From assembly GCA_020161265.1 (NCBI GenBank), contig JAIUOC010000009.1:186001-250000 (forward strand): a stretch of 64,000 bases of DNA, in the 5' to 3' direction. The position numbers were made by a program, and so were the translations under genes. Position 1 is the stretch's first letter. Every line of letters begins with the position of its first letter. Source of the stretch: Chloroflexota bacterium (GTDB taxonomy: Bacteria; Chloroflexota; Chloroflexia; Chloroflexales; Herpetosiphonaceae). This document shows, in pieces, positions 43,128-53,442 of this stretch. Below the pieces are notes generated by a model. The model was not told the origin of the DNA, searched no databases, and saw only the letters and a list, made by a program, of their open reading frames with translations.

Positions 43128-43233
43128 TTACTCAATTAATCGTAATTTTGTTCGTAAACTCTCACCCCTAGAGTGGATATGCATTGTCCATTTTTTGACC
43201 GTTTTCGCATCTGTTCTGAAGAAGGAGTACCCC

Positions 43234-43893
43234 ATGCGGATCCTGATTGTTGATGATCATCCGGTGTTTCGGGAGGGGGTACGTGCCCTACTCGAAACCC
43301 ACGATGAGATGGAAGTTGTTGGCGTGCTTGGGCATGGGCGCGACGCTGCTGTAGTTGCAAAAGATCAATTTGTTGATGTGGCACTGCTCGATGTGAGCTT
43401 GCCCGATATGCCTGGCTATGAAGTTTGTCGCTCAATTGTGGAAGCGTCGCCACGCACTCGCGTGTTGATGTTGACCGCCAACGACACCAACGATGTGATT
43501 CGCCAATCGCTGGCCGCTGGGGCCGCTGGCTATGTGCTCAAAACCGAAGATCCCTCCCGCTTGATCAGCCACATTAGTGCAGTTGCTCAAGGTGAAACGG
43601 TTTTGGCTGGCCCAATTGCTCAAAAAGTTGTGCGCCAACTGTTGGAAGGCCCACAGCCAACCGTCTCGACCAAAACCAATGATGCCCTGAATGCCTTGAC
43701 CGAGCGCGAACGCCAAGTCTTTTTCTTGGCAGCCGAAGGGCGGCGCAACAGCGATATTGCCCAACAATTAATTCTGAGTGAAGAAACGATCAAAACTCAC
43801 TTGCGCAATATTTATAGCAAATTAGGTTTAGGCAATAAAGCTGAATTACGCTTGTTCGCGGTGCAAGCTCGACTCGCACCACCCCAAATCTAA
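43234..43893 (+). CDS. NarL/FixJ-family response regulator
   Basis: A 219-residue regulator. The receiver domain begins MRILIVDDHPVFREGVRALL and carries D53 (VALLDVSLPDMPGYE), the conserved Thr in LMLTANDTND and Lys in GYVLKTEDP. The C-terminal LuxR-type helix-turn-helix has ALTERERQVFFLAAEGRRNS and LSEETIKTHLRNIYSKLGL. The start at 43234 follows GAAGGAG by 6 bp. Lying 107 bp before the RiPP locus on the same strand, it could control that locus, but a separate promoter candidate sits between. Confidence 0.93.
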   Translation: MRILIVDDHPVFREGVRALLETHDEMEVVGVLGHGRDAAVVAKDQFVDVALLDVSLPDMPGYEVCRSIVEASPRTRVLMLTANDTNDVIRQSLAAGAAGYVLKTEDPSRLISHISAVAQGETVLAGPIAQKVVRQLLEGPQPTVSTKTNDALNALTERERQVFFLAAEGRRNSDIAQQLILSEETIKTHLRNIYSKLGLGNKAELRLFAVQARLAPPQI

Positions 43894-44000: not shown

Positions 44001-44297
44001 ATGAATGAGCACGCTCCACAACGATTTGTCCGTGATCCGGCGATTGTTACCCGTAGCATTGGGAGTGAAACGGTGTTGGTTCCTGTGCGACCAAATACCG
44101 CTGCCCTCAATGCTATTTTTGCGCTTAACGAGACTGCCGCGCTAGTTTGGCAAGCTTTGGCAACACCCCAAAGTCTGGCCGAATTAATCGACCTCGTGTG
44201 TGCTGAATACGATGTTGAGCCTCGGGCCGCCCAAGCCGATCTGATTCCGTTGTTGGAATCGATGCTTGAGGTCGCTGTTATTCAGGAGGTTGCCTAA
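44001..44297 (+). CDS. PqqD-like RiPP recognition element protein
   Basis: A 98-residue protein of the PqqD family, the small winged-helix domain that binds the leader of a precursor peptide and presents it to a modifying enzyme. The start region FVRDPAIVTRSIGSETVLVP, the strand AIFALNETAALVWQALATPQ and the helix LAELIDLVCAEYDVE followed by QADLIPLLESMLE are typical of PqqD domains. ATG 44001 is chosen over a TTG at 43980. It ends 2 bp before the radical SAM gene, so the two are coupled. It is the first gene of the RiPP locus. Confidence is high for the fold, moderate for a role in peptide maturation. Confidence 0.88.
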   Translation: MNEHAPQRFVRDPAIVTRSIGSETVLVPVRPNTAALNAIFALNETAALVWQALATPQSLAELIDLVCAEYDVEPRAAQADLIPLLESMLEVAVIQEVA

Positions 44298-44299
44298 GC

Positions 44300-45415
44300 A
44301 TGGAACTATGTGCTGAAACCAACGATGCGGCGTTCAATGTCCGATTAGCAGCTTTAGGTCGTGTGCCGGTTTCGATGTCGTTCGAGTTAACCGAGCGCTG
44401 CAACTTAAATTGCCAGCATTGCTATATCAACTTACCAGTTAATCACCAAGCTGCCCGCCAACGTGAGCTTTCGACCGACGAATGCAAACGGCTTTTCGAC
44501 GAAATGGCGGCAGCAGGCACGCTTTGGTTGCTGCTGACTGGCGGCGAAATTATGGTGCGGCGCGATTTTGAAGAGCTGTATCTCTACGCGCGTAACCTTG
44601 GCTTTGTGATTTCGATCTACAGCAACGCCACAATGATCACCCGCCAACGCGCCGAATTTTTGAGCCAATATAAGCCGCATTTGGTCGAAGTAACTTTGTA
44701 TGGAGCCACCGCCGAAACCTACGAAACTGTAACCCGCGTGCCTGGCTCGTTTGCCAAGTGTATGCAAGGTTTGGCGCTGTTGGCCGAATATGAGATTGAT
44801 GTGGTGCTCAAAACCGTCTTGCTGAACATCAATTCACACGAATTTTTGGCAATGAAGGCCGTTGCCGAGCACTATGGCTGGGATTTCCGCTACGATGGCA
44901 TGATTCACCCACGCTTAAATGGCGATCGTTTTCCAACCACCTTACGGCTTAGCCCCGAAGAGCTGATCGAAATTGAAAAACTCGATCCGCAGCGGGTCGA
45001 AGAATGGCAAGATTACTGCAACGGGTTTTTGGGCTACCAAATGAAGGGTGGCGAAAAAACCTTCACCTGTGGCGCAGCCAATAAATCGGGCCATGTTGAT
45101 GCCTATGGGATGGTCAGCCCGTGTATGATTACCCGTACCCGCGCTGTCGATTGGCGAGCAACCAATTTTATGGAAGTCTGGGATGGCTACTTGGCCGATG
45201 TGCGCGAAACCCGCAACACCGAAGCCACTGCCTGCCACTCCTGCGAAATGTCTTTGGTCTGTACCAATTGTCCAGGTTGGTCGGCCTTAGAACGTAACAC
45301 GTTGGAAAATCGCCCCATTGAGTGGGTGTGTGATAGTACGAAGGCGCGAGTTTCTGCTTTTGCCGAAAATGCCGACCGTTGGATCAATAATGCAATTTGT
45401 CTAGAGGTTCGCTAA
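44300..45415 (+). CDS. Radical SAM/SPASM peptide-modifying enzyme
   Basis: A 371-residue radical S-adenosylmethionine enzyme with a C-terminal SPASM domain. The first cluster is bound by C34, C38 and C41 (ERCNLNCQHCYIN). Later segments LLTGGEIMVRRDF and EVTLYGATAETYETVTRVPG follow the fold of PqqE/AnSME-type peptide enzymes. Auxiliary-cluster cysteines lie in FTCGAANKSGHVDAYGMVSP and its following Cys, and in CHSCEMSLVCTNCPGW. Neighbouring PqqD-like protein, precursor peptide and kinase genes make a peptide substrate very likely. The chemistry (thioether, carbon-carbon or carbon-oxygen bond, or epimerisation) cannot be read from sequence. The precursor gene starts 22 bp after it. Confidence 0.93.
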   Translation: MELCAETNDAAFNVRLAALGRVPVSMSFELTERCNLNCQHCYINLPVNHQAARQRELSTDECKRLFDEMAAAGTLWLLLTGGEIMVRRDFEELYLYARNLGFVISIYSNATMITRQRAEFLSQYKPHLVEVTLYGATAETYETVTRVPGSFAKCMQGLALLAEYEIDVVLKTVLLNINSHEFLAMKAVAEHYGWDFRYDGMIHPRLNGDRFPTTLRLSPEELIEIEKLDPQRVEEWQDYCNGFLGYQMKGGEKTFTCGAANKSGHVDAYGMVSPCMITRTRAVDWRATNFMEVWDGYLADVRETRNTEATACHSCEMSLVCTNCPGWSALERNTLENRPIEWVCDSTKARVSAFAENADRWINNAICLEVR

Positions 45416-45437
45416 CCTCGTACCGGGAGGATGTCTC

Positions 45438-45608
45438 ATGGCACAACAATCATCAAGCCAGCCCGAGCGCAAGCCACGCAAAGCCTACGTCAAACCAACG
45501 ATCGAAACGGTTGGCTTGCGGATCAAAGAAGATGTGTTGGCAGTTTGTCGCACGACCAGCAGTGCTACATCAGGCGCAAATTGTAAAATTACACCCTGTT
45601 TTACCTAG
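45438..45608 (+). CDS. Putative RiPP precursor peptide
   Basis: A 56-residue open frame, smaller than usual gene-calling cut-offs, with GGGAGG 7 bp before its ATG. The basic N-terminal leader contains Y17-V-K-P20-T-I22-E-T-V-G26, matching the YxxPx(L/I)xxxG motif that RRE domains bind in lasso-peptide and related leaders. The C-terminal 20 residues (CRTTSSATSGANCKITPCFT) are Ser/Thr-rich with C37, C49 and C54, and form the probable core. Its position between the radical SAM gene and an HprK-like kinase gene supports this. The product, cleavage site and modifications are unknown. Confidence 0.8.
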   Translation: MAQQSSSQPERKPRKAYVKPTIETVGLRIKEDVLAVCRTTSSATSGANCKITPCFT

Positions 45609-45622
45609 GCGTTATTTTCACC

Positions 45623-46453
45623 ATGGTTATGCTTACAATTGGCGGTTGTCGGCTGGCACTTGATCTGCCAACTTGGCCAGCAATGGTCGATCAACAATTT
45701 CAAACGACCAACACAACCGCCGATCTGACGATTCTTAGCTGTGCTGCCGCTGACCGCTACCCGCTTGGTCAGCGGCTTTTTCAGGCCGATCAAGTTTGGG
45801 CGCTCTGGCAATCTGCGCATGTTCGCAGCATTGTTGGCCACCCACCAACCCATGCTGAGCCATTGTGGGTGCTGCAACAAACCGCCAGCGATACATGGTT
45901 ATTAAGCCATGATCCCAGCATTAGTGCCGCCGAAGTGCTGTTCGATTACCCCGCTTTGCAGCTGATTTTGATCGAATGGCTCAGCACCAATCAAGGTGGC
46001 TTATTGCATGCTTGCGGCCTGATCGATGGTGAACAAGGCTTACTCTTAGTTGGTCCACCAGGTGTGGGCAAATCGACTTCAGCCCGCTTATGGCATAGCG
46101 CTGGAGCCTGCATTTTGAGCGACGATCGCGTGATTGTGCGCTGGCAAAATGGGCAGCTTTGGGCTTATGGCACACCTTGGTATAGCAGCGCTGGCTTGAT
46201 CGCGGCCCAAGCTGCCCCAGTTCGGGCGATTTGCTACCTCAGCCACGGACAAACTAATCGAGCCACCAGTTTGAGTAGCGCTCAGGCCTTGCGCCATTGG
46301 TTGCCAGAACAATTTCTACCCTTGTGGAATCCGATCGCACTTGATCAGTCCTTGCAGGTTGCCGATTATGCTACTAGCAAGCTGGACCAATGGCACTTGG
46401 CGTTTGTGCCCGATTCTGAGGTAATTAGTTATGTGCGCCAACAGCTTGGCTGA
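45623..46453 (+). CDS. HprK-like kinase of the RiPP locus
   Basis: A 276-residue protein of the HPr kinase/PEP carboxykinase-like group found in peptide-modification clusters. The variable N-terminus (about 1-110) is followed by LLHACGLID, the P-loop GPPGVGKST (144-152), and ILSDDRVIVRW (about 164-174), which in HPr kinases carries the Asp pair near the active site. In lasso-peptide clusters, related kinases phosphorylate a Ser of the peptide; here Ser/Thr in the precursor core are candidates. It starts 14 bp after the precursor gene and overlaps the next gene by 23 bp. Role inferred from context. Confidence 0.82.
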   Translation: MVMLTIGGCRLALDLPTWPAMVDQQFQTTNTTADLTILSCAAADRYPLGQRLFQADQVWALWQSAHVRSIVGHPPTHAEPLWVLQQTASDTWLLSHDPSISAAEVLFDYPALQLILIEWLSTNQGGLLHACGLIDGEQGLLLVGPPGVGKSTSARLWHSAGACILSDDRVIVRWQNGQLWAYGTPWYSSAGLIAAQAAPVRAICYLSHGQTNRATSLSSAQALRHWLPEQFLPLWNPIALDQSLQVADYATSKLDQWHLAFVPDSEVISYVRQQLG

Positions 46454-46871
46454 ACGAGTGCTAAGCGCCGCCGAGGCTTATGATTTGGCGCAGATCGTGG
46501 TGCAGGCTGGTGGGCAATTAGAACTTCAAGTTGCGGGCCGCAGCATGCATCCCATCTTACCCGACCAAACGTTAGTAACAATTGCAGGCTTGCCCAATCG
46601 TATCCCACTAGGCAGCGTGGTTTTGGCCAAAGTTGGTCAACGGGTGGTTATTCATCGCTTGCTTTGGCGTAAACAAGCACACTATTTGATTGCTGGCGAT
46701 GCTTGCCCCTATTTCGATGGCTGGATCGAACGCTCGGCAATTGTGGCTCAAGCAGTAACCTGGCAGGCTGCCGAAAAATCATTGAGCATGAGTAATGGTT
46801 GGCGTTGGTATCAATGGAGTTTGGCGTGGTTGCGCCATGCACGGCGTTGGTTAATTCATCATTTGAGGTAA
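46431..46871 (+). CDS. S24/S26 signal peptidase-like protein
   Basis: A 146-residue protein resembling the catalytic core of ER/SipW-type signal peptidases. S38 lies in AGRSMHPIL (nucleophile), H75 in QRVVIHRLLW (ER-type catalytic base in place of Lys) and D90 in LIAGDACPYF. There is no clear N-terminal membrane anchor; the C-terminal part (WRWYQWSLAWLRHARRW) is aromatic and basic and might touch the membrane. Genes like this accompany several radical SAM and lasso-type RiPP loci and could remove the leader or process an exported product. It starts inside the 3' end of the kinase gene. Confidence 0.75.
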   Translation: MCANSLAERVLSAAEAYDLAQIVVQAGGQLELQVAGRSMHPILPDQTLVTIAGLPNRIPLGSVVLAKVGQRVVIHRLLWRKQAHYLIAGDACPYFDGWIERSAIVAQAVTWQAAEKSLSMSNGWRWYQWSLAWLRHARRWLIHHLR

Positions 46872-46873
46872 GT

Positions 46874-49800
46874 ATGCTACAACGTTGGTTAATTGGTTGT
46901 TTGGTTGTGTCGCTGATGCTGATTCGGCAGCCCGTGGTTGCCCAAATTACCACGGCAACGCTTACGCTGCAACGCCACGACCAACAACTGTATATCAACG
47001 TGCAATTACCTAAACCAACCCTGCAAACCAATAGCATCAACATTGCAGGCTGGCAAAATGATGCCACGCCTGATCAGCCCGCCTTACCGCGATCAACCCA
47101 CTGGTTAGTTGTGCCAGCAGGCTACCAACTCAGACTAAAATCGATTAATCCCCAACAGCTACAACGCTATCATCAACAACTAAGCCTCAATCCCAGCAGT
47201 GGTTGGCAGGTTGATCCACTCGCACCAAGCAAGGCCATAGCGCTAAGCGCACCCAGCGCAGCCGTCAAACAAGCTCAATATCCAACAACATGGGCCAGCC
47301 TTGGTCAGAGCGTCCAAGTGCGCGAGCAACAACTTGTGCCGCTAACGATTTTTGGGGCGCAATGGCAACCAAGCAAACAGCAAGTAGTTGTACCAAGCTC
47401 AATCGATATAGCTCTAGAATTCGTGGCAAGTGCCGAGCAACGCAGCTTGCGAGCTGATCCATTTTGGAATCAACTGCTGCGCCAACAAGTGCTCAATCCT
47501 AGCGATCTACAAAATCCAGCATTACGCCCAACCTTTACCACCACCACGCCAGTAACCAATGGGGTGCGAGTGAGTTTTGCCAACCCTGGTATCAGCGAAA
47601 TTCGTTGGAGCGATTTGCAAGCGGCGGGCGTACCAAGCCAATGGCTCAATCAATCGGCCAATTTACAACTATGGCAAGGGCGTAATCAACTGCCACGGTT
47701 GCTGACTGCGACTGGCATGATTTTTTATCTACCGCCCTACAATCGCGATCAAAGCCACCAAGGCAGAGTGATTGTGCGCTGGAATGCGCAGCAACCAGGC
47801 AATGTATTAGTTAGCGAATCAGTCAATTCGGCCAACCCAAACCTGAGCTACTACAGCGAAACCTTGCGCTTGGAAGAGCAAAAACTCTATCTGAGCGCCT
47901 TTCCGGCCAGCGGCACAAATCGTTGGTGGTGGCAATATTGGTATAGCCCAGGCTCCGGCCAAAGCGCTCAGCCTTTACAGATTAATTGGAATTTGGATAA
48001 TGCAGCTCGCTTCGATCAGCCAGCCCGTTTGCGGTTGCGCTTGCATGGCGGCAAACTTGGCAATCGGCATCAAGCCGAAATTCGCCTGAACAATCGTTTG
48101 CTCACAACAGTCACAATGACCGGCTTTCAACTGCTTGAGCCAACGATTAACCTGCCAAGTGGCTGGCTTAGCACAACCAACCAACTCACAATTACCCCAA
48201 TGAGCACCGAGCGCGAAACCAGCTTTCTCGATTGGGTTGAGCTAGAGTATCAGCGTCAAGCGCAGGCAGTCGCGGGCCAATTGCAATGGTCAAGCAGCCA
48301 AGCCAACCAAAGCATTAGCAATATCACCAGCGAAAATCCGTTGCTATTTGATGTGCAAACGCCCTTGGCTCCGCGCCGCTTGATTGGCTGGAACTTGCAG
48401 CAAGGCCAATTAAGCTGGCAAACCAGTGGCAATCGCCGCTATCTTGTGCAAAGCCAACGCCAAACACCGTTGAGCAGCGTTTGGTTTAGCCAGCCCGATT
48501 TGAGCAGCAGCCAGCAAGCCGATTATTTGCTGATTAGCTATAACCCAGCCAACTCCACGAGTTGGAGTGATGCATTGCAACCATTAATTGCTCAACGCGC
48601 CAGCCAAGGCCTCAAGCCGTTATTAATTGATGTGCAGCAGATTTACGATCAATTTGGCGACGGGCGCGTTGATCAACAGGCGATCGCCGATTTTATCAAG
48701 TATGCCTATCGCAACTGGCAAGCACCAGCGCCTAGTTTTGTGGTGTTGGTTGGCGATGGCACGGCTGATCCGCACGATTATGCTGATATTATTGGCCGAC
48801 CCGTGACCAATTTTATTCCGCCCTATTTGGCTGATGTTGACCCGTGGTTGCGCGAAACTGCTGCCGACAATCGCTATGTGACAGTTGCTGGCAACGATAA
48901 TTTGCCCGATTTGTTTTTGGGGCGAATTCCAGCGCGTTCGCTGAGCGATGTTGAACATGTAGTTGCGAAAATATTAAGCTACGAAGCCACGCCCGACAAC
49001 GCCGATTGGCTGGACAAGCTGTTGTTTATCGCCGATGATCCAGATGTATCGGGCGATTTTCCCTGGCTTTCAAACGAGGTGGTGGAAATTTTGCCGCCAA
49101 CGGTTGACGATCAACAACTCTATTACACACCCAACACCAATCTGACGAATTTTCGGGCAGAAATCGTTAATCAGATCAACGCTGGCCAATTTTTGGTGAA
49201 TTATGTTGGCCATGCGGGCATCGATGTCTGGGCTGATCCGACGATTTTCAATCAGCAATCGATAGCAAGTTTAAGCAATAGCGCCTTGCCGTTGATGCTC
49301 TCACTGAGTTGCTACGCTGGTCATTATCAACAAAACGACCTTGAATCGTTGGCCGAAATGCTGGTGTTGAAGCCTGAGCATGGAGCAGTTGGCATGTGGG
49401 CGGCCAGTGGTTTAGGCATCGCCCATGGTCATGATTATCTGAATCGTGGGTTTGTAAACTCCATAATCAACGATGGTTGGCGTTTGGTTGGCCCAGCAAC
49501 AATTCAAGGCAAGCTTGATTTAGCAGCGGCTAATATCTCGCCCGATTTGCTCGACACCTTTACTTTTTTTGGTGATCCGGCGCTGCGTTTGCCCTTACCG
49601 ACCAGCAATACTTGGCAACCACAGGCCGATTATTACGAAGTTTTGCAATATTCGCAGGCCAATCGGCTAACCCCATTAGCGAATGATCAAGCCAATTTTA
49701 GCCAAATTATCAGCCTTGAACAACCACAGCATGGCCAGGTTTGGCTCGATGCAGATCAACGCAGCGTTCGCTACACGCCTGATCCCGTTTATAATGGGCT

Positions 49801-49924
49801 TGATTCATTTCGCTATCAGGTGCGCAATTTAAGCTTGAATCAAACCCTAAGTGCAACAGTGACGATTAGCGTAACCGCGATTGCGCCGCAGCTCTACCTA
49901 CCATTAGCCATCGCAGATTATTAA
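46874..49924 (+). CDS. Gingipain-like cysteine peptidase (C25)
   Basis: A 1016-residue exported protein. A signal peptide (LIGCLVVSLMLIRQPVVAQ) is followed by a long beta-rich N-terminal half, then the C25 domain (about 555-910) with FVVLVGDGTADPHDY, catalytic H780 (NYVGHAGIDVW) and C813 (LSLSCYAGHY). The C-terminal ~85 residues are a cadherin/Big-like module (LANDQANFSQIISLE...YTPDPVYNG). The start at 46874 has GAGG 5 bp upstream and lies 2 bp after the S26-like gene, so it is probably cotranscribed with the RiPP genes. Its substrate is unknown; Type IX or other secretion signals are not evident. Confidence 0.88.
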   Translation: MLQRWLIGCLVVSLMLIRQPVVAQITTATLTLQRHDQQLYINVQLPKPTLQTNSINIAGWQNDATPDQPALPRSTHWLVVPAGYQLRLKSINPQQLQRYHQQLSLNPSSGWQVDPLAPSKAIALSAPSAAVKQAQYPTTWASLGQSVQVREQQLVPLTIFGAQWQPSKQQVVVPSSIDIALEFVASAEQRSLRADPFWNQLLRQQVLNPSDLQNPALRPTFTTTTPVTNGVRVSFANPGISEIRWSDLQAAGVPSQWLNQSANLQLWQGRNQLPRLLTATGMIFYLPPYNRDQSHQGRVIVRWNAQQPGNVLVSESVNSANPNLSYYSETLRLEEQKLYLSAFPASGTNRWWWQYWYSPGSGQSAQPLQINWNLDNAARFDQPARLRLRLHGGKLGNRHQAEIRLNNRLLTTVTMTGFQLLEPTINLPSGWLSTTNQLTITPMSTERETSFLDWVELEYQRQAQAVAGQLQWSSSQANQSISNITSENPLLFDVQTPLAPRRLIGWNLQQGQLSWQTSGNRRYLVQSQRQTPLSSVWFSQPDLSSSQQADYLLISYNPANSTSWSDALQPLIAQRASQGLKPLLIDVQQIYDQFGDGRVDQQAIADFIKYAYRNWQAPAPSFVVLVGDGTADPHDYADIIGRPVTNFIPPYLADVDPWLRETAADNRYVTVAGNDNLPDLFLGRIPARSLSDVEHVVAKILSYEATPDNADWLDKLLFIADDPDVSGDFPWLSNEVVEILPPTVDDQQLYYTPNTNLTNFRAEIVNQINAGQFLVNYVGHAGIDVWADPTIFNQQSIASLSNSALPLMLSLSCYAGHYQQNDLESLAEMLVLKPEHGAVGMWAASGLGIAHGHDYLNRGFVNSIINDGWRLVGPATIQGKLDLAAANISPDLLDTFTFFGDPALRLPLPTSNTWQPQADYYEVLQYSQANRLTPLANDQANFSQIISLEQPQHGQVWLDADQRSVRYTPDPVYNGLDSFRYQVRNLSLNQTLSATVTISVTAIAPQLYLPLAIADY

Positions 49925-50037: not shown

Positions 50038-50946
50038 TTGAAGCATATAGAGTACGAGTTTGTAGTGGTACAACCGCCAACCATCGATTCGACACACGAC
50101 GATTTGGGCTTGCTTCAAGAATTGCTGGCAGCACCACCACCAGTGCGTTCGTCATTGCATCGGCCAGCCCAACTCCGTTCGCTCAAAGAAGAGCGGAAGA
50201 CTGCACTTCAGGGTTATCGTTTCCGTGGGGTGCTTGACGCTATTTTAGTGCGCTCGGAACGTTTGTTGATTGTTGGGGTAATCATCTTTTTTGGTTATTG
50301 GGTGGTCAACATCTACGGACGAGATTGGTGGTATGCCCGTAACAATCCGGCGGCTCCAGCTGTGGCTTGGGAAGCACTCGCCCCGGGAGCTAGTGCCGCT
50401 GAACTTGATCGAGTACTAGGCCAACAATTACCAGTAATTGCTCCCGCCATCAGTGCGGCTGCACCCGATTATCTTGTGCCTGCTCAGGCGTTTATTTTGC
50501 CACCTGCATCGCCAACCCCAACGCCTGATCCCATGAGCTTTATTCCCAAACGGATGATCGTGCCAACAATGGAGCTTGATAGTCCGGTGCGTGAAGTATT
50601 TTTGCGCGATGGTATTTGGGAAGTTGCCGATTATGCTGTGGGTTATCATCATGGCACGGCCTTACCAGGCAAAGGGAATAGCGTTTTTGCTGGGCATGCA
50701 GGTATTCGTGGTAGTGTTTTCGCCCGCCTGAATGAACTTCAGATTGGTCAAGATATCTACGTCGAAACTGCCGATACCCGTTATCATTATCAAGTCCAAA
50801 CAATTCAACAAGTTTGGCCAAACCAAGTCGAAGTTATGTATCCAACCGAGCAAGCAATTATCACGATGATCACATGTACTGCGTGGGACACCCAACGGTT
50901 GGTGGTCAAAGCTCGGCTGATTGATCAGGCAGCGCTCTCCTCTTAA
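50038..50946 (+). CDS. Class E-like sortase
   Basis: A 302-residue transpeptidase that anchors secreted proteins through a C-terminal sorting signal. A cytoplasmic Pro-rich N-terminus of ~75 residues is followed by a membrane segment (about 76-93) and an extracellular sortase barrel. The catalytic triad is H220 (NSVFAGHAGIRGS), C280 (ITMITCTAWD) and R287 (TQRLVVKAR). The TTG start at 50038 has no strong ribosome-binding site; GTG codons at about 50063 are alternatives. The next gene, 30 bp downstream, encodes a protein ending in an IPATG sorting signal and is the likely substrate. Confidence 0.88.
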   Translation: MKHIEYEFVVVQPPTIDSTHDDLGLLQELLAAPPPVRSSLHRPAQLRSLKEERKTALQGYRFRGVLDAILVRSERLLIVGVIIFFGYWVVNIYGRDWWYARNNPAAPAVAWEALAPGASAAELDRVLGQQLPVIAPAISAAAPDYLVPAQAFILPPASPTPTPDPMSFIPKRMIVPTMELDSPVREVFLRDGIWEVADYAVGYHHGTALPGKGNSVFAGHAGIRGSVFARLNELQIGQDIYVETADTRYHYQVQTIQQVWPNQVEVMYPTEQAIITMITCTAWDTQRLVVKARLIDQAALSS

Positions 50947-50976: not shown

Positions 50977-53442
50977 ATGAAATCTTTTTTTCGTCGGCAA
51001 CGCCCGACATCCCTCCGCGAACGAGGTAAAGGCAAAGTTCGCTGGACAATCTGGGAGTTAACAGCGCTGGTTGTTAGCATCATTATGATGGCAACCCCAT
51101 TGTTAGCCGCGATTAGCAGTGCTATTTTTCCGTTTAATGCTCAGGCGCAAACCACGCCTCGGCCAACATCAATTCCTACGCCAATAACACCGCTGCCAGC
51201 AACTGCAACCCAGACCTATCCGGTGCCAACCGAAACACCGATTGCCACACCGTGTCCAACGTTCGCACCAACCGACACACCAACCGAGACTGCCACAACC
51301 TATCCAACACCAGGCACACCAGGCACACCAACCGATACACCAAGTGTGACGGATACTCCCAGTGTCACGGATACACCAACGACGATTATTACGTCTACCA
51401 ATACACCAAGTGTGACTGACACTCCTAGCGCACCAACTGACACGCCCAGCGTGACTGATACACCAAGCGCTCCAACAGCAACCACGGTTGTGACACCAAC
51501 AGTAACCAGTGTGGTAAGCCCAACCATACCACGCGGAGGCATGGGGAGTAGCACGCGTTTGCAACGACCTTTGGCTCAAACGCCAGATCCATGTGCAACT
51601 CCACCAACAATTGTGCTTCCGCCAACCGATACCATCCCGCCCGAGGAAACTCCAACCGGCACGATTACTGGCTCAATCACCCTGACTCCAGATACTCCAA
51701 CGGTTGATCCATGTGTGATTGCAAGTTGTACGCCAGTTGCAACCATCCCAACCGATATTGCAACAGCGACCGAAACCACCTTGCCTGCCGATGAACCGAT
51801 TGCAGTGGCGAAGAGTAGTTCTCGTTCGTTGCTTCAGCCTGGAGAGACATTTAGTTATATCATCACGGTGAGTTTCCAAGATAACGGTGATGGGCAAACG
51901 TCACGTTCAGTGACGATTAGCGACCCATTGCCAAGCCAAGTGACATTCATTGCGGTGCAACAGCTTGGCTCAGCTACCTGTGTTGGTGGCACAACTGTCA
52001 ACTGTAATGGTACAGTTAGCGCTGGCAACCCAATCGTGGTTACCATTCAGGTTCAGGTTAATGCTAGCGTGGCCTTGGGCACAAATATCGTAAATACGGT
52101 CAGCGCCTCGGCTGCTAATCGCACGTTGCAAGCAAGCGATACCGTGATTGTGCCAGATACCTTGCCAACGATTACAATTGGCACGGCAGGCCCAAGCTTT
52201 ACGCCAATTATTGTGACCAATACCCCTGGCGGCAATTCAACCGTAACTCCTGGGGGTGGTTCGACTGTTACGCCTGGCGGCAACTCAACCGTAACCCCAA
52301 TCATCGTAACCAATACGCCAGGCGGTGGTTCAACCGTAACCCCAATTATTATCACTAACACACCTGGTGGCTCAACCAGCGTGCCTGTTACAACTGGCCC
52401 AAGCAACACGCCACGGCCAAATCAGCCGAGCAACACGCCACGGCCAAACCAGCCAACTAACACGCCACGGCCAAATCAGCCGAGCAACACGCCACAACCA
52501 AATCAGCCGAGCAATACGCCACGACCTGATATCACGTCAGTGCCTGCGACCAATGTGCCAGTTGCTACGGTTGTGCCACCAAGCAACCCAACTGCCACGC
52601 CACGCCCAGGCGCACCAGTGCCTTCAGCAACTCAACGCCCAGGCGGTGGTTCAAATCCAAGTGCTACGCCACGTCCAGGTGCACCAGTGCCTTCAGCCAC
52701 CAATGCACCTGCTGGAAACCCACCAACCAATGCACCAGTTCCAGCGACGGCAACACCAACCAATCCAGCTGGCTTCGTCACCGATCCAATCGTGACTGGC
52801 TTGCAGTTCCAAAAGAAGAGCGATTGGGGCAGCCGCTTTGCAGGCGAAAGTTTGATTTACACAATCACGATCATCAGTCCAACCAATTCATTGAATGCTG
52901 GTACGATGCGTGATGTGGTGGTCGTTGATCAATTGCCAAGCAACTTGGAAACCAATGGCCCAATCAAGGTCAGCGACCAAAATGCACGGGTTGAACAACA
53001 AGGCAACCAAATTACCGTGCGGGTCGGGGTCTTGCCAGCAGGCCAAACCTTAACGATCATGATTCCAGTCAAGATCAAAGATGGAGTGGCTGCTCAAACC
53101 CGGATCGTCAACCAAGCACAGTTGAACTTCGCTGGCCTGGCCCAGCCAATCTACTCGAATATTTCGAGCGTGTTGGTGGTCGGCGAAGCCCCAGCAGTCA
53201 GTGCCACAGCAATTCCTAAGGGTAATGTTGGTGGCGGTGCTGCAACTGCCAATCCAGCCACCGTCACGCCAAATACTGGCATTGGCGGCGGCCAAGGTAG
53301 TGGTGACGGTACTGGAGCAACCGATGTTGGAACGATCAACCCAGCTACTAACATGGGTATTCCAGCAACAGGCTTGGTACTCTTTGCCCTAACCATGGCA
53401 GTCCACGTTGTGCGGGTTCGCCGCGAAATGACGCGGATCTAA
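50977..53442 (+). CDS. Surface protein with DUF11-like domains and an IPATG sorting signal
   Basis: An 821-residue exported protein. A signal/anchor segment at about 20-45 leads into Thr/Pro-rich linkers. Two DUF11-like beta domains are recognisable: one at about 270-385 (KSSSRSLLQPGETFSYIITV) and one at about 610-730 (GESLIYTITIISPTN and VVDQLPSNLETNG). Between them are repeats, including SNTPRPNQP 9-mers. The C-terminus has IPATG (about 794-798), a hydrophobic stretch and RVRREMTRI, the layout of a sortase substrate. It begins 30 bp after the sortase gene. A terminator follows. Confidence 0.88.
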   Translation: MKSFFRRQRPTSLRERGKGKVRWTIWELTALVVSIIMMATPLLAAISSAIFPFNAQAQTTPRPTSIPTPITPLPATATQTYPVPTETPIATPCPTFAPTDTPTETATTYPTPGTPGTPTDTPSVTDTPSVTDTPTTIITSTNTPSVTDTPSAPTDTPSVTDTPSAPTATTVVTPTVTSVVSPTIPRGGMGSSTRLQRPLAQTPDPCATPPTIVLPPTDTIPPEETPTGTITGSITLTPDTPTVDPCVIASCTPVATIPTDIATATETTLPADEPIAVAKSSSRSLLQPGETFSYIITVSFQDNGDGQTSRSVTISDPLPSQVTFIAVQQLGSATCVGGTTVNCNGTVSAGNPIVVTIQVQVNASVALGTNIVNTVSASAANRTLQASDTVIVPDTLPTITIGTAGPSFTPIIVTNTPGGNSTVTPGGGSTVTPGGNSTVTPIIVTNTPGGGSTVTPIIITNTPGGSTSVPVTTGPSNTPRPNQPSNTPRPNQPTNTPRPNQPSNTPQPNQPSNTPRPDITSVPATNVPVATVVPPSNPTATPRPGAPVPSATQRPGGGSNPSATPRPGAPVPSATNAPAGNPPTNAPVPATATPTNPAGFVTDPIVTGLQFQKKSDWGSRFAGESLIYTITIISPTNSLNAGTMRDVVVVDQLPSNLETNGPIKVSDQNARVEQQGNQITVRVGVLPAGQTLTIMIPVKIKDGVAAQTRIVNQAQLNFAGLAQPIYSNISSVLVVGEAPAVSATAIPKGNVGGGAATANPATVTPNTGIGGGQGSGDGTGATDVGTINPATNMGIPATGLVLFALTMAVHVVRVRREMTRI
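52400..52530. repeat. 27-bp tandem repeat in the sortase-substrate gene
   Basis: Four to five copies of a 27-bp unit (CAACACGCCACGGCCAAATC core) encode SNTPRPNQP. Differences are mostly third-base. Confidence 0.8.

Follow-up and report, generated by a model that had tools for sequence, protein, structure and literature searches.

The operon described here lies in a 64,000-nucleotide stretch (the window; contig JAIUOC010000009.1, positions 186,001 to 250,000) of a 6.04-Mb Herpetosiphon genome, and very likely encodes the pathway of a ribosomally synthesised and post-translationally modified peptide (RiPP). Six genes follow one another on the + strand. The first (44001..44297) encodes a PqqD-like protein of 98 aa, a discrete RiPP recognition element (RRE; PF05402, E 1.7e-14). 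It is followed by genes for a radical SAM/SPASM peptide maturase of 371 aa (44300..45415; PF04055, E 2.5e-19), a precursor peptide of 56 aa, MAQQSSSQPERKPRKAYVKPTIETVGLRIKEDVLAVCRTTSSATSGANCKITPCFT (45438..45608), an HprK-like kinase of 276 aa (45623..46453; recognised by invariant motifs and predicted fold), a soluble, signal peptidase-like S24/S26 peptidase of 146 aa (46431..46871; PF00717, E 8.9e-5, just below the cut-off) and a secreted, gingipain/PorU-like C25 cysteine peptidase of 1016 aa with a propeptide and an Ig domain (46874..49924; PF01364, E 4.4e-91). Families were assigned by Pfam and NCBIfam profile scans of the open reading frame (ORF) translations, with the model thresholds as cut-offs. 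The first five genes, and their spacing of 2, 22 and 14 bp from the PqqD-like gene through to the kinase gene with a 23-bp overlap between the kinase and S26 genes, are exactly as a preliminary description of this DNA had given them. That description overlooked the sixth gene of the unit, the C25 gene, which starts 2 bp past the S26 stop. Strong ribosome-binding sequences precede the precursor gene (GGGAGG) and the radical SAM gene (AGGAGG); a promoter and terminator scan gave a site count no higher than in shuffles.

The precursor is a real gene under purifying selection, as judged from the comparison of the window with H. giganteus, where 17 synonymous and 3 non-synonymous differences give a ratio of non-synonymous to synonymous rates (dN/dS) of 0.04. 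Residues 31-56 account for ten of the synonymous differences and one non-synonymous one, which exchanges the terminal Thr for Ser; this sole core replacement in Herpetosiphon retains the hydroxyl. Homologues occupy the same slot across loci. No Pfam or NCBIfam precursor family matched the window precursor or the tested relatives above cut-off, and a BrnA antitoxin match (E 0.19) was dismissed as chance.

Relatives of the radical SAM enzyme were searched for in one Chloroflexota class (matches in 32 of 249 genomes) and in a sample across the phylum Chloroflexota (15 of 350), both with an E limit of 1e-40, and in the phyla of an Aminicenantes genome (41 of 297) and an Omnitrophota genome (46 of 237), both with an E limit of 1e-50. 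About 130 loci were retrieved and annotated with hidden Markov models built from the first-found loci; since these seeds come from the same family, the locus counts below characterise this family and should not be read as an unbiased census. The five genes are kept together in all Herpetosiphon genomes found and in OHK22, a metagenome-assembled Herpetosiphonaceae genome of a second genus. At 32 loci, spread over Chloroflexota and the two other phyla, the genes stand in exactly this order (PqqD, radical SAM, precursor, HprK, S26), each time with a [Y/W]xxP precursor. Because of this conservation the five-gene set is judged to be beyond chance. The preliminary description had named as evidence against itself radical SAM homologues in unrelated gene surroundings that lack a conserved small peptide, and the 32 loci show the reverse.

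Three layouts were distinguished. Type A has the window order, with S26 optional; besides the 32 loci with all five genes it includes 12 loci, with 13 precursors, where no S26 was detected. Type C places HprK first, followed by PqqD, radical SAM and precursor. In type B there are several radical SAM genes and the HprK domain is fused to one of them; such fusions lie at L008 3795-5831, L010 7032-8999, L061 373-2535 and L118 12746-14869. Near the first cluster of the Aminicenantes genome lie a small ORF rich in Cys and Gly and another radical SAM/PqqD set, of different appearance (L008 9389-9586 and 10296-12929).

Precursor candidates were ORFs of suitable length next to the radical SAM gene that carry a [YWF]xxP leader motif; their C-terminal ends were not a criterion. 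Of 107 candidate ORFs, 17 were dropped by eye as cut or not precursor-like, leaving 90. This curation saw whole peptides including their ends, so it was not blind, and one dropped candidate (L178, ending in Leu, with no kinase seen) may be a genuine precursor. The precursors share [YW]xxP, often followed by EAVL[GAST]xCK and then usually by two further Cys. In the window the predicted RRE-binding leader motif is Y17-V-K-P20-T-I22 (YxxPxI; 45486..45503). Of 83 non-redundant peptides, 64 have G, T, A or S two residues before the first Cys, and 47 have a core with exactly three Cys. A small residue at this position fits a signal-peptidase-like cut, which in the window would fall after Ala35 and release the predicted core VCRTTSSATSGANCKITPCFT (45543..45605), with three Cys and a C-terminal Thr56 (codon 45603-45605).

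The window radical SAM enzyme has the CxxxCxxC motif (C34, C38, C41) and a seven-Cys SPASM set (C257-x12-G270-x4-C275, C312-x2-C315-x5-C321-x2-C324 and C344). The radical SAM and SPASM Cys are invariant in two alignments; the SPASM profile match is sub-threshold. An aryl or cyclophane crosslink was rejected as the general chemistry, because W, Y, F and H are all missing from 17 of the 83 cores and such a link is thereby excluded in them. A thioether is a plausible product. SPASM enzymes do catalyse many reactions, and this one could instead form an aliphatic C-C link or an ether, epimerise a residue or cleave the backbone, leaving the Cys to form disulfides only; the Lys that usually follows the first Cys (46/83) is a possible alternative target. 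We regard such a non-thioether reaction as somewhat unlikely, since, among reactive residues, it is chiefly Cys that is conserved, in cores that in part lack any aromatic residue, and since the nearest solved structure to the enzyme is SkfB, a thioether-forming maturase.

The window kinase combines H129, a P-loop (GPPGVGKST) and an Asp pair (D167-D168), and H129, K150, D167 and D168 are invariant in the alignment. Its HprK profile match is sub-threshold. The structural model has a mean predicted local distance difference test score (pLDDT) of 58.9, with confidence limited to the C-terminal half; this half matches HprK/P (1jb1; Z 11.3, 118 residues, 2.8 Å) and PEPCK about equally, at Z 11-12. 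Despite the sub-threshold profile matches, active-site residues and fold, the latter with weak matches for the peptidase, support this identity and that of the S24/S26 peptidase.

All 69 precursors whose kinase has an intact Asp-Asp pair past the P-loop end in Ser (62) or Thr (7). The background for terminal Ser/Thr is 10.5% (821 long ORFs from the same loci), and the two residues make up 6-31% at precursor positions -2 to -15. This is a strong regularity: the terminal hydroxyl is kept without exception beside intact kinases, across very different cores and in three phyla. Where no kinase was seen, one of four precursors ends in Ser/Thr; at one additional locus, with a kinase lacking a recognisable P-loop, the precursor ends in Thr. 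Fisher tests of the Asp pair against the terminal residue gave p values of 4.6e-9 for all precursors and 8.6e-7 with similar peptides removed, both ignoring ancestry. Phosphorylation of the terminus by the HprK-like kinase is probable on this sequence evidence, with Thr56 as the predicted phosphoacceptor in the window, and has a parallel in paeninodin-type kinases, which phosphorylate a C-terminal Ser (PMC9266682). Part of the record speaks against it. With the Asp pair changed to ED or DE, 8 of 16 precursors end in Ser/Thr; the kinase tree holds just seven Asp-pair changes and four terminal-residue changes; and an independent-pairs test gave no significance, there being too few changes. Covariation with the Asp pair is for this reason not claimed as proven, and the link between the two is suggestive. 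Kinases with GED replacing the Asp pair form a sub-clade (L057, L058, L108, L110, L140, L142), and five of its six precursors have lost the Ser/Thr end.

The conserved Ser/Thr might serve another step, such as recognition or attachment to a sugar or the cell surface, with the kinase acting elsewhere. The eight precursors that keep a Ser/Thr end beside an altered pair would fit this, as would the resemblance of the C25 peptidase to the sortase PorU (an NCBIfam match below cut-off). Yet Ser/Thr is also kept in Omnitrophota-phylum loci without C25 and in loci without a detected S26, and other ends are confined to loci with an altered or unseen kinase; we consider this explanation unlikely.

The closest known systems are the linear polyphosphorylated peptides (LPP; Popov et al. 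2026, PMC13381572) and the paeninodin-type lasso peptides, neither of which has a radical SAM enzyme. In LPP, experiments have shown that an HprK-like kinase phosphorylates a [Y/W]xxP precursor and that a signal-peptidase-like enzyme, assisted by an RRE, cleaves it (PMC13381572). LPP and the window operon share a discrete RRE, an HprK-like kinase, a Ser/His/Asp peptidase of signal-peptidase type and a [Y/W]xxP leader, and the window motif agrees with the published [Y/W]xxPx[L/V/I/F/A]. The LPP enzyme, LppS, cuts the RRE-presented leader (PMC13381572), and its S29/H68/D93 are paralleled by S38/H75/D96 of the window S26 enzyme in order and roughly in spacing. The preliminary description knew of no described family with this gene set; this stands for the radical SAM combination, for which we found no precedent in the literature searched, but not for the kinase and peptidase half, since LPP is a related kinase, RRE and signal-peptidase family.

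Given this shared logic, the operon could belong to the LPP family, its product modified chiefly by phosphate, with the radical SAM enzyme in a minor role or in place of the NTP (nucleoside triphosphate) transferase. We think this improbable. The LPP leader reads YxxPxVLxHQxIxFETxxS, whereas only the YxxPxI part is present here, continuing ETVGLRIKEDVLAVC; the FETxxS end is missing, and Cys and the C-terminal Ser/Thr are conserved instead. The LPP core set includes an NTP transferase and an MsbA-like transporter, and the window operon has neither. An NTP_transf_5 gene sits elsewhere in the genome and NTP_transf_5-like genes lie near 19 loci; the genes adjoining the operon include no recognisable transporter, further window ORFs having been read by eye and not all scanned. 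LPP were described in Bacillota, with a core set that has no C25 peptidase. The LPP paper does not mention a radical SAM enzyme; its presence in every locus here is partly by design, because it was the search query.

Paeninodin-type lasso peptides share the RRE (B1), the HprK-like kinase and the C-terminal Ser/Thr of the precursor (Thr56 in the window, Ser in relatives). They differ in that the window has a radical SAM enzyme and an S26 peptidase instead; no B2 cysteine peptidase was found here, and an asparagine-synthetase-like macrolactam cyclase is missing from the operon and adjoining genes. The Cys-containing core and the SPASM maturase with its complete Cys set resemble those of sactipeptides and ranthipeptides; we know of no described member of either group that carries a kinase or a signal-peptidase-like leader peptidase. 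The SynChlorMet (Scm) models TIGR04248-TIGR04251 name a PqqD relative, an HprK-like protein and radical SAM/SPASM enzymes together. Membership of that cassette was rejected because all Scm models, ScmF included, score far below their cut-offs for the window and tested relatives (ScmE at best 83.5-92.8 bits against 400, ScmC 20-21.8 against 125, ScmD 14-18 against 100). A literature search found no SynChlorMet paper, and none that joins HprK, a radical SAM enzyme and a RiPP, although subscription literature was mostly outside its scope.

Lasso-type PqqD models also match the PqqD-like protein, sub-threshold, and the nearest solved structures by sequence are the lasso B1 proteins TbiB1 and TfuB1. 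In the S26 peptidase S38, H75 and D96 do not vary across the alignment. The model (pLDDT 78) has as its top fold matches SpsB (signal peptidase I), the human signal peptidase complex and LexA (E 2.7e-3 or weaker), and relatives match TIGR02228 (archaeal-type signal peptidase I) just below cut-off. By analogy with LppS, this enzyme is the probable leader peptidase. S26, signal peptidase and C25 all go unmentioned in a 2023 review of the proteases that remove RiPP leaders. That the S26 enzyme instead serves as signal peptidase for the adjoining gene's secreted C25 product, which has a signal-peptide-like N-terminal hydrophobic segment, is improbable given the LppS precedent, a search of the S26 enzyme that found no transmembrane segment, and the lack of a nearby C25 gene at all 19 precursor loci of the Omnitrophota set (L179-L215), many of which have S26 in the cluster.

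A C25 gene lies near 38 of 84 precursor loci, including 29 of 42 in Chloroflexota and 9 of 21 in the Aminicenantes phylum (L144-L178), always on the same strand in these. It follows the five genes in every Herpetosiphon or OHK22 locus whose fetched stretch extends that far. Several Omnitrophota-set loci have ABC transporter genes in its place. The whole 6.0-Mb Herpetosiphon genome has two C25 genes; no RiPP genes were detected around the other (L219 6766-9372). If the RiPP reading is right, the association is a recurrent link between a RiPP and a gingipain-like secreted protease.

The operon has neighbours on both sides. Just upstream and on the same strand lie genes for a sensor histidine kinase (43127 being its last position, from 41439) and a NarL-type response regulator (43195-43893). 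Such a pair also precedes the cluster in OHK22 (L007) and may regulate it. Downstream of C25 are a sortase gene (50038-50946) and a gene for a surface-type protein that is rich in Thr and Pro and has a C-terminal signal resembling IPATG (50977-53442); the start of this pair is also visible in OHK22.

Taken together, every part of the preliminary reading gained support: that the locus makes a RiPP, that a radical SAM enzyme modifies it, that it is probably phosphorylated and that an S26-like enzyme removes the leader. We lean towards a pathway whose product is modified by the radical SAM enzyme, probably with thioethers, phosphorylated at its C terminus and freed of its leader by a signal-peptidase-like enzyme. 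The PqqD-like RRE would bind the YxxPxI leader and present the precursor to the enzymes, a role established in the lasso and LPP pathways. The radical SAM/SPASM enzyme would then modify the core, most likely by forming thioether links from the three conserved Cys, and the kinase would phosphorylate the terminal Thr/Ser, as its conservation suggests. The soluble S26 enzyme, like LppS, would cut at V-L-[AGST]|x-Cys. The C25 peptidase may have its role outside the cell, together with the product or with the product as its target, and we defend no mechanism for it. Several facts weigh against this pathway: the case for the thioether is built on exclusion and family resemblance; the best NCBIfam models for the radical SAM enzyme are for heme biosynthesis and mycofactocin, all far below cut-off; at 17 precursor loci with both kinase and RRE no S26 was detected, and contig ends truncate some of these; and the LPP phosphate is on Ser3, near the cleavage site, as opposed to the C-terminus predicted here.

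The combination is new as far as the literature searched goes; the underlying RiPP logic is known. Tentatively, the combination may define a separate RiPP class in at least three phyla, its products both crosslinked by radical SAM chemistry and phosphorylated at the C terminus, and released by a cytosolic signal-peptidase-like enzyme, with a C25 partnership in Chloroflexota and the Aminicenantes phylum and sub-types that include the radical SAM-HprK fusion. For the peptides themselves, sequence predicts a phosphorylated last residue, a leader cut two before the first core Cys and crosslinked Cys; where the Asp pair is altered, the kinase may fail to act on the terminus. If true, a single pathway would apply both radical SAM chemistry and HprK-type phosphorylation to a peptide, a pairing that we met in no described pathway, and would do so in phyla from which few peptide products have been characterised.

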